NCBI GenBank assembly: GCA_021772975.1
Contig: JAJFKY010000016.1
Location: 186,001 to 250,000, forward strand
Source of the DNA: Gammaproteobacteria bacterium
GTDB taxonomy: Bacteria; Pseudomonadota; Gammaproteobacteria; Xanthomonadales; Wenzhouxiangellaceae
Direction of reading: 5' to 3'
Length of the DNA: 64,000 nucleotides
The notes under the pieces: generated by a model
Databases searched by the model: none
Told to the model about the DNA's origin: nothing
What the model saw: only the letters and a program-made list of their open reading frames with translations
Program-made: the position numbers and the translations under genes
Shown here: piece after piece, positions 3,700 through 30,218 of the stretch
How the letters are laid out: every line of letters begins with the position of its first letter
How positions within the stretch are numbered: position 1 is the stretch's first letter

Positions 3700-3729
3700 C
3701 CGTCAATCGACTCTGATTAAAATCCTTTA

Positions 3730-4015
3730 GGAACCTCTGATTTAATCTGCCATGGCCGCGACAGCCTGAAATGAGTCAAGCCAAGGCGTCGTCGCGCAGT
3801 GCAATAGCCGGTCTATTGCCAAGCGGCGCAACGCAGGATTGGCTCATTTCAGGCGTAACCCCTTATGGGAGCGGCCTTTTTGGGCGCATTGCAGCCCAAA
3901 GAAAATTGACCATTCATCCACTCGACGTAGCCCGCTATGCCTTCGTTGATAAAGGCACTGCACTGCATCCCCAAAAGACTCGCTCGCGACCGTGTCAGGT
4001 TAAATCAGAGGTTCC
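3730..4015. mobile_element. MITE-like element, copy 1
   Basis: This 286-bp non-coding element is bounded by 20-bp terminal inverted repeats (left GGAACCTCTGATTTAATCTG, right arm with one mismatch). A 4-bp direct repeat TTTA flanks it at 3726-3729 and 4016-4019, which looks like a target duplication. Inside, arms 3764-3775 (GCCTGAAATGAG) and 3843-3854 pair perfectly, enclosing a second stem GCAATAG/CTATTGC (3801-3807 with 3813-3819). Another imperfect stem lies around CGTAGC/GCTATG in the right half. A second copy in the same orientation is at 29932. Both copies have an open frame across the element, but differences between them are not concentrated at third codon positions, so I do not call a gene. 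The 4-bp duplication and TIR style resemble IS5-type mobility; that is inference. Confidence 0.85.
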
Positions 4016-4140
4016 TTTATTCCATAAGGAAAAACCGCGGTATAACTGAACGGTCCAGCTCCTGCGCTCAGGCCATAAAACAGTTGCCTCCTCCATATTC
4101 GACTTGTATTTGGCATGATTTTCGTCACTTATTAGGCGCG

Positions 4141-16168: not shown

Positions 16169-17134
16169 TTAACGCCGGTTCCAGTCAAACGACATACTGT
16201 CGGCAACGTTGCCGGCATCCAGCATAACGCTCAACAGCCGCTCCACGCCTAATGCCACCCCGGAGCATTCCGGCATACCGTGACGCATCGCCGCCAGCAG
16301 TTTACGATCAGGTTCCAGCGCCGGCCTGTCCAATTTGTCGCGCTGCCGCTGGTCTTCGATAAAGCGCTGTAACTGTTCGTTGGCATCGGTCAGTTCCTGA
16401 TAGCCATTGGCCAGTTCCAACTGGCCCAGAAACACCTCAAAACGTTCTGCCACCGGGGGGGCTTCCGGGTTATTTCTGATCCGCGCCAGGGCGGCCTGGC
16501 AAACCGGAAAATCGTAGATCACGGTAAGCGTCTGCCGCGGCAGGGCCGGTTGCAGCAAATGGCTGAAAATAAAATCCAGCAATACACTGCGGCTGGTTTT
16601 ATCCGCCTGGGCATGCCAGCCGTGACTGCGCGCCAACTCCAGACAGTGTGCGTCTGGCAGCGTGGCAAGCTCCTGCCCCAGCACCTGCCGGGATAAATCC
16701 GCATAACTTATTTTCTGGACCGGCCACAGGGCTAATTTATCAGCACTGCAGGCAGCCAGTAACTCGATCACCTCGTCGATCAGCCGGGTATAACTCCAGC
16801 CCACCCGGTACCATTCCAGCATATGAAATTCGGGGTTGTGCCAGCGGCCGCTTTCGCCCTGGCGGAAGACCGGACCCAGTTCATAGATATCACCGCTGGC
16901 GGCGGCCAGCAGACGCTTCATGGCATATTCGGGTGAGGTGCGCAGATAACTGGCGGCGGTTGCCAGCGCGAAACTGTCCAGGTGCGGATCGGTCACGCCG
17001 CATTTGACGACTACCGGGGTGAACACCTCCAGCACTTTGCGGGCGGCGAAGAAGCGCCGGATGGTATTGATCAGTTGAGCCCGCTGTTGCAAAGTGCGCA
17101 GGCTGGCCGTCGGCTGCCATTGCTCCAGGTTCAT
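16169..17134 (-). CDS. epmA: EF-P beta-lysylation protein EpmA (PoxA/GenX)
   Basis: Class II lysyl-tRNA-synthetase paralogue without anticodon-binding domain, 321 residues (E. coli EpmA is about 325). It attaches (R)-beta-lysine to a lysine of elongation factor P. It shows the class II motif 2 with FRQGESGRWHNPEFHMLEWY and motif 3 with GVALGVERLL. I chose the ATG at 17134, which overlaps the ppx stop codon (ATGA). The longer frame adds 30 residues of low similarity. Being last in a ppk-ppx run is unusual and probably reflects transcriptional linkage rather than function. Confidence 0.9.
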   Translation of the reverse strand: MNLEQWQPTASLRTLQQRAQLINTIRRFFAARKVLEVFTPVVVKCGVTDPHLDSFALATAASYLRTSPEYAMKRLLAAASGDIYELGPVFRQGESGRWHNPEFHMLEWYRVGWSYTRLIDEVIELLAACSADKLALWPVQKISYADLSRQVLGQELATLPDAHCLELARSHGWHAQADKTSRSVLLDFIFSHLLQPALPRQTLTVIYDFPVCQAALARIRNNPEAPPVAERFEVFLGQLELANGYQELTDANEQLQRFIEDQRQRDKLDRPALEPDRKLLAAMRHGMPECSGVALGVERLLSVMLDAGNVADSMSFDWNRR

Positions 17135-29825: not shown

Positions 29826-29931
29826 CTGGTTAATTTTTTACCAACGGTTTGAAAAGAGCAGAGTGACCGCTGGCCGCCCTGCTCTTACCTCGAGCCCTTT
29901 TGATTAAAAAAACATCGGTCTAATCTTTTAG

Positions 29932-30203
29932 GGAACCTCTGATTTAATCTGCCATGGCCGCGTTACAGCCCGAAATCGCTCAAGACAAGGCGTCGCTGCG
30001 CAGTGCAATAGCCAGCCTATTGCCCAGCAACGCACCGCAGGATTGGGCAATTTCGGGCGTAACCCCATGTGGGAGAGGCCTTGTTTGGCGCATTGCAGCA
30101 CTTTGTCCACTCGACATAGCCAGCTATGCTGTCGTTGACAAAGGTACTGCACTACACCAAACAAGACTCACTCGCGACTATGTCAGATTAAATCAGAGGT
30201 TCC
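29932..30203. mobile_element. MITE-like element, copy 2
   Basis: Second copy, 272 bp, same orientation as the one at 3730. Its 20-bp terminal inverted repeats are perfect, and the flanking duplication is TTAG (29928-29931 and 30204-30207). The outer hairpin pairs 29968-29979 with 30047-30058, and the inner GCAATAG/CTATTGC pairs 30005-30011 with 30017-30023. The right half has a stronger stem than copy 1: CTTTGTC...CGACATAGC pairs with GCTATG...TGTCG...GACAAAG. It sits 15 bp past the stop codon of the SDR gene and directly after the pseudogene. Confidence 0.87.
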
Positions 30204-30218
30204 TTAGATAAAAATGGC

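Follow-up and report, generated by a model that had tools for sequence, protein, structure and literature searches.

Miniature inverted-repeat elements with changing ends share a hairpin core that is probably functional as a folded strand

When a short mobile repeat can fold into hairpins, the question arises whether selection acts on the folded form or on the ends alone, and what moves the element. This question is raised by two copies of such a repeat in the window analyzed here, a stretch of 64,000 nucleotides from a gammaproteobacterium of the family Wenzhouxiangellaceae (Table 1). A preliminary description had reported 20-bp inverted ends and flanking duplications of TTTA and TTAG. Re-reading the sequence recovered both copies in place with perfect 4-bp duplications and with the inverted ends as described; the left outer 31 nt are identical in the two copies. 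Likewise, the compensated base pairs claimed for the outer hairpin were found, for example in the left hairpin, where the outer stem has CCTG/CAGG in copy 1 and CCCG/CGGG in copy 2. As single strands, both copies form far more stable folds than their dinucleotide shuffles do (z of -9.4 for copy 1 and -11.8 for copy 2). Copy 1 has phoU on one side and a gene for a phosphate-selective porin on the other, and copy 2 lies directly downstream of a gene for a short-chain dehydrogenase, which points towards the element.

Table 1. Parts of the two element copies in the window. R2 is a home-made covariance model (see text); its E-values are rough, and both copies are among its 58 training rows.
Feature	Position	Strand	Basis
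Target-site duplication TTTA, left flank of copy 1	3726-3729		Sequence
Copy 1 of the element, 286 bp	3730-4015	+	Sequence, own-genome BLAST
Left terminal inverted repeat of copy 1, GGAACCTCTGATTTAATCTGCCATGGCCGCG	3730-3760	+	Own-genus alignment, helix 1
Left hairpin of copy 1: arms, core and apical stem-loop	3764-3854	+	Own-genus alignment, shuffle-tested fold
Conserved core of copy 1 with inner arms	3770-3848	+	R2 covariance model, 71.9 bits, E 4e-19
Exact core motif of copy 1, CAAGGCG-N6-CGCAG-N20-CAAG-N5-CAACGCAG	3782-3836	+	Pattern match
Linker hairpin (CCCC..GGGA) and right hairpin of copy 1	3859-3984	-	Own-genus alignment
Right terminal inverted repeat of copy 1	3985-4015	-	Own-genus alignment
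Target-site duplication TTTA, right flank of copy 1	4016-4019		Sequence
Target-site duplication TTAG, left flank of copy 2	29928-29931		Sequence
Copy 2 of the element, 272 bp	29932-30203	+	Sequence, own-genome BLAST
Conserved core of copy 2	29974-30052	+	R2 match, 57.0 bits, E 1.6e-14
Target-site duplication TTAG, right flank of copy 2	30204-30207		Sequence

The preliminary description had proposed a MITE-like family and had named a scarcity of further copies as evidence that would speak against it. BLAST returned 30 loci in the own genome, about 20 of them complete or near-complete and most of the long matches 71-86% identical to copy 1, and the end motif occurs 80 times there with up to three mismatches vs 0 times for the control. 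Direct 4-bp duplications flank several of these copies (TTTA, TTAG, TAAG, TTAA), and a congener (G001) has about 10 copies, whose duplications include CTAA and TTTA; over both genomes the copies are mostly 70-86% identical. The phoU-porin interval of this congener carries no insert, a result at the level of the interval as the intergenic DNA there fails to align. The elements thus qualify as MITEs by several features: they are short, without coding capacity, bounded by terminal inverted repeats (TIRs), flanked by YTAR-type target-site duplications, present in multiple copies and present or absent between relatives. The ends of the window family were absent from 41 other genomes of the host's bacterial family, and blastn of copy 1 against phages and plasmids gave no match. 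All 29 own-genus copies examined are intergenic, with neither an orientation bias towards neighboring genes (TT 8, HH 6, TH+HT 15) nor a preference for gene 3' ends. One copy in each of the two species (L017, 1501-1801; L050, 1501-1769) has its left hairpin flipped in situ with respect to the ends and the right hairpin, which points to recombination or template switching between inverted arms. Solo 27-bp palindromes consisting of both terminal repeats without the interior (G000:C3:259919-259945, G000:C19:13083-13109, G001:C6:132034-132060, G001:C18:144433-144459) may have arisen by deletion or excision; a 56-bp version is found at G000:C3:86339-86394.

In other genera of the host family, weak BLAST matches are confined to the middle of the element; the elements found there have other ends and the same apical hairpin. 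The core so defined is located in the left hairpin and has the consensus CAAGGCG-N5-CGCMG-(apical hairpin, 16-21 nt)-CAAG-N5'-CAACGCMG. A covariance model of the apical hairpin (R1) has matches in 65 of 369 Gammaproteobacteria genomes, and on reading, these loci proved to be elements bounded by TIRs of many kinds; their lengths are 149-338 bp and in most cases 265-275 bp. The model R2, built from 58 cores with 12-nt arms (alignment A3), has matches in 97 of 398 Pseudomonadota genomes at E of at most 1e-4, a rough value for a home-made model, and finds 1-28 copies in each of the Clostridia genomes tried. At least 119 matches to the exact core pattern occur in a 257-Gb genome collection, where we estimate about 0.2 by chance; the matches listed come from Gamma- and Betaproteobacteria, Desulfuromonadales, Desulfovibrionaceae and Clostridia including the isolate Clostridium methylpentosum, and the few that have no complementary arms may be chance or coding. 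An internal hairpin shared between phyla and independent of the ends is not visible from the window alone. No Rfam covariance model scored above its gathering threshold; MIR8788 was rejected as the identity of one locus (L034), given a weak score far below threshold. We found no description of such a core in the open-access literature; subscription papers and ISfinder were outside the search, so its novelty is provisional.

Six IMG/VR contigs classed as viral (L115, L116, L118, L119, L120, L121) contain core motifs with complementary arms and are possibly prophage regions, and two matches to a short core pattern among viral_contigs were dismissed as chance. On a plasmid of P. aeruginosa PA83, an unannotated intergenic core element (L269, 3001-3183) lies less than 3 kb from an IS1071-type transposase gene. 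In four genomes (G261, G276, G287, G814), many cores sit no more than about 200 bp from the end of a contig; apparently the assemblies break at these near-identical elements, which suggests that they were amplified recently.

Two facing cores are present in 49 elements, with starts 104-107 bp apart in 38 of the 49. Among about 80 elements bounded by a good TIR, 49 have a length of 260-279 bp, and single-core elements mostly measure 140-200 bp; the Clostridial ones (L283-L288) belong here with about 158-163 bp, several having ATACTA-type ends. Throughout, the core is conserved in fold and loop letters while terminal repeats and hairpin arms vary across lineages. The right hairpin of copy 1 represents a degenerate core in opposite orientation (minus-strand genus consensus GTCAA-CGCAGG-..-TCAAG-TTGAC); R2 does not match it, and the loop consensus in the window's genus retains CGCAGG and TCAAG.

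Is the fold itself under selection, as the preliminary description had suspected? In an alignment of 19 own-genus copies (A5), 93.3% of cells are paired vs 87.9% after shuffling, 30 pairs vs 18.5 show two-sided changes, and the covariation is 0.192 vs 0.101; slid controls fall to about 36% paired, a comparison partly favored by construction because the structure was predicted from A5 itself. Above all, the cross-lineage alignment A3 (58 cores, 58 lineages) has 88.3% of cells paired vs 57.1 shuffled, a covariation of 0.761 vs 0.205 (sd 0.012) and two-sided changes in 24 of 27 pairs. Shuffle tests are inflated by related sequences; A3, however, was drawn from many genera. For N5 and N5', on which the search pattern placed no pairing constraint (nor on the arms), 334 of 390 pairs form vs 196 (sd 8) with partners shuffled. 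The 7-bp stem, counting its tandem 5'-GA/GA-5', forms in 527 of 553 cells, and the tandem GA/GA count is 15 vs 4.4 expected (sd 1.8). Unpaired core letters are A-rich and 85-100% constant, a constancy partly built in, as many rows were pattern-chosen, and also seen without the pattern at the loci found by R1. Covariation thus exceeds both shuffled and slid controls, as expected of a conserved structured nucleic acid, and pairing extends beyond the ends; the support for selection on the fold far exceeds what two copies alone could show.

The mismatches indicate which strand folds. A3 contains 126 G.T and 28 A.C pairs, compared with 179 and 113 after shuffling, a depletion of about fourfold for A.C but of only 1.4-fold for G.T. 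The opposed second core has the same excess of G.T over A.C on its own strand, in an alignment that was fitted by the covariance model and leans to G.T, which the pattern-chosen A3 set does not. In the own genus, the terminal repeats are symmetric (G.T vs A.C 12:11) and the left hairpin has a modest excess (31:16). As A.C pairs are far scarcer than G.T pairs, the CAAG strand is likely the one that folds, and from the covariation, the A.C deficit relative to G.T and the tandem G.A we infer that the strand reading CAAGGCG is selected as a folded single strand. Because the same fold and loop letters recur in very different bacteria despite differing ends, the fold is probably functional, and the job it does is probably one not yet described.

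The ends tell a different part of the story. The preliminary description had expected IS5-type ends, and the end class in question (YTA followed by GGR.CTGT.., and YTAR followed by GGAACCTCTGA) indeed also bounds IS5-family insertion sequences (ISs) as well as the IS5-like MITEPsy1 (PMC3189936). With the 33-nt end of Azotobacter and Pseudomonas elements as query, we retrieved IS5-family ISs from Aeromonas and Paracoccus plasmids with CTA..TAG flanks. One IS5_3 element of 856 bp (L274) encodes a protein identified as transpos_IS5_3 (NCBIfam NF033580) with E 1e-79. The ends of these ISs, CTA followed by GGGGCTGTTGACGTTT, differ at one position from those of the 269-bp core elements of Pseudomonas, Azotobacter and Halomonas, CTA followed by GGGTCTGTTGACGTTT. 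The ends thus match IS5 for the GGGTCTGTTGACG type, a match made across species, and for the window's GGAACCTCTGAT type by tip similarity only. These IS5_3 ISs share tips and CTA..TAG flanks with the core elements of the three genera; they differ in their length of about 840-860 bp, in having a transposase gene and in the missing core hairpin, as R2 finds no match in them. Since IS5_3 elements with the same ends are coreless, the interior is probably not IS-derived, and an internal deletion of an IS does not account for it, the interior being unlike IS5_3. IS630/Tc1 had been considered as the mobilizer of TA-flanked elements and was dropped: IS5_3 ISs have identical CTA..TAG flanks, so that IS5 suffices as an explanation. 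A 311-bp element with IS5_3 ends and no R2 core match on a Catenovulum adriaticum plasmid (L276, 2504-2814) indicates that coreless MITEs with such ends also exist.

No transposase had been noticed in the window, and neither Pfam DDE_Tnp_1 (PF01609) nor IS5_3 transposases were detected in the whole own genome; a matching transposase is also absent from the congener. Elsewhere there are remnants in G261 and G276 and a weak match in G287, and G276 carries pieces of IS5_3-type ISs with GGGTCTGTTGACGTTT ends. The search for a full-length IS that the preliminary description had proposed succeeded in part: IS5-family ISs with the ends of the Pseudomonas core elements were found, an IS with exactly the GGAACCTCTGAT ends was not. 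No inward-facing pair of the window family's own ends at IS distance was found in the own genome or the congener, nor of the CTAGTACTC ends among the matches listed for G261, G129, G276 and G122, and in no single genome did we find an autonomous IS sharing the exact ends of resident core elements. In its own genome the family looks stranded, without its transposase.

Coxiella QMITEs, ERIC/RU and NEMIS are MITEs that form stable hairpins on transcription, and we know of no description among them of a core conserved across phyla with changing ends. A known element with similar ends is MITEPsy1 of Pseudomonas syringae pv. phaseolicola, an IS5-type element of 100 bp with ends GGAAGGTCTGAAAAA and GTATCCTCTGAAAAA, a 4-bp CTAG or YTAA duplication and transposition in vivo (PMC3189936). 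The GGAACCTCTGAT ends resemble those of MITEPsy1 and ISPsy2 (PMC3189936), and the window elements share with MITEPsy1 the miniature IS5-type format and the 4-bp duplication. MITEPsy1 was rejected as a member of the core family, as R2 had no match in the first 45 kb of its carrier plasmid, which includes a MITEPsy1 copy at 16477-16584. The R0/R2 intergenic repeats of P. fluorescens (PMC2718517), compared by description only, are also bounded by inverted repeats and have ends in common with resident ISs.

REPINs of the REP-RAYT system (PMC3116915, PMC3733652) are similar as intergenic, non-autonomous, high-copy inverted hairpin pairs, and one could suppose that the present hairpins are likewise sites of a recombinase or HUH endonuclease, comparable to integron attC or REPIN/RAYT, rather than parts of a DDE-transposon MITE. 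A single-strand hairpin with conserved unpaired letters and an inverted pair per element would fit. However, REPINs consist of REPs of 20-40 nt that carry a GTAG or CGTC tag and are mobilized by a Y1 enzyme (PMC3116915, PMC3733652), whereas the core elements have 77-nt cores without these tags, DDE-type TIRs, YTAR or TA target duplications and IS5-type ends, and by eye the core consensus contains no paired attC boxes (RYYYAAC/GTTRRRY); we regard such an origin as very improbable. It is also rather improbable, if less so, that these are ordinary IS5 MITEs whose palindrome is kept by template switching or recombination between inverted arms, with a fold devoid of function. The arms are long and perfect, and the left hairpins flipped in place show that such events occur, but correction of this kind predicts neither constant unpaired letters nor a deficit of A.C relative to G.T, and it does not explain a core, spacing and length kept in two phyla and many families whose elements have unrelated arms and ends.

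A stronger competitor, though still an unlikely one in our estimation, is that the core acts as folded single-stranded DNA at a replication fork or in a transposition intermediate, where binding by transposase or a host DNA-binding protein would make the miniature element a better substrate and RNA would be irrelevant. Facing cores would supply each DNA strand with one core, the constant 105-bp spacing and the length of about 269 bp suit a DNA architecture, DNA hairpins also contain tandem G.A and G.T pairs, and the copies show no bias relative to transcription. RNA is not singled out by the mismatches, because G.T is better tolerated than A.C in single-stranded DNA too. On the other hand, the unpaired conserved letters are A-rich on the folding strand, tandem G.A combined with tolerance of wobble pairs is more typically seen in RNA, and the A.C deficit contradicts a duplex cruciform, in which both strands would count equally.

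We therefore lean, with slightly better than even confidence, towards a long-lived and widespread MITE superfamily that would be mobilized in trans by IS5 and whose core would act as a folded single strand, most likely RNA. Judging from the ends, an IS5-family transposase would use the terminal inverted repeats in trans, with insertion at YTAR or TA. The interior, one core or two facing cores at fixed distance, is conserved in fold and loop letters across many lineages. A transcript crossing the inserted element in either direction would contain one correctly oriented core. This RNA could be recognized by a host or transposon factor via its A-rich internal loops, and the recognition could help the element to persist or spread. 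Trans-mobilization, function as a folded single strand, RNA nature, partner and effect are all what we infer from sequences. More tentatively, the core may be a distinct type of mobile structured-RNA module that predates its present ends, which would have been swapped repeatedly (IS5 YTAR, TA, Clostridial ATACTA); its RNA, made from either strand, would bind a conserved bacterial factor, and selection on the RNA fold would maintain an element without transposase in two phyla.

Bacterial MITEs are usually regarded as decaying leftovers of ISs whose interiors are unimportant. Here the most conserved part is the interior of a MITE, independent of ends and transposase, and this calls for a function of the interior. 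The covariance model can annotate so far unannotated repeats in about a quarter of the sampled Pseudomonadota genomes, and it becomes possible to test directly whether selection maintains the folds of bacterial repeats or whether they are incidental, a long-standing question.
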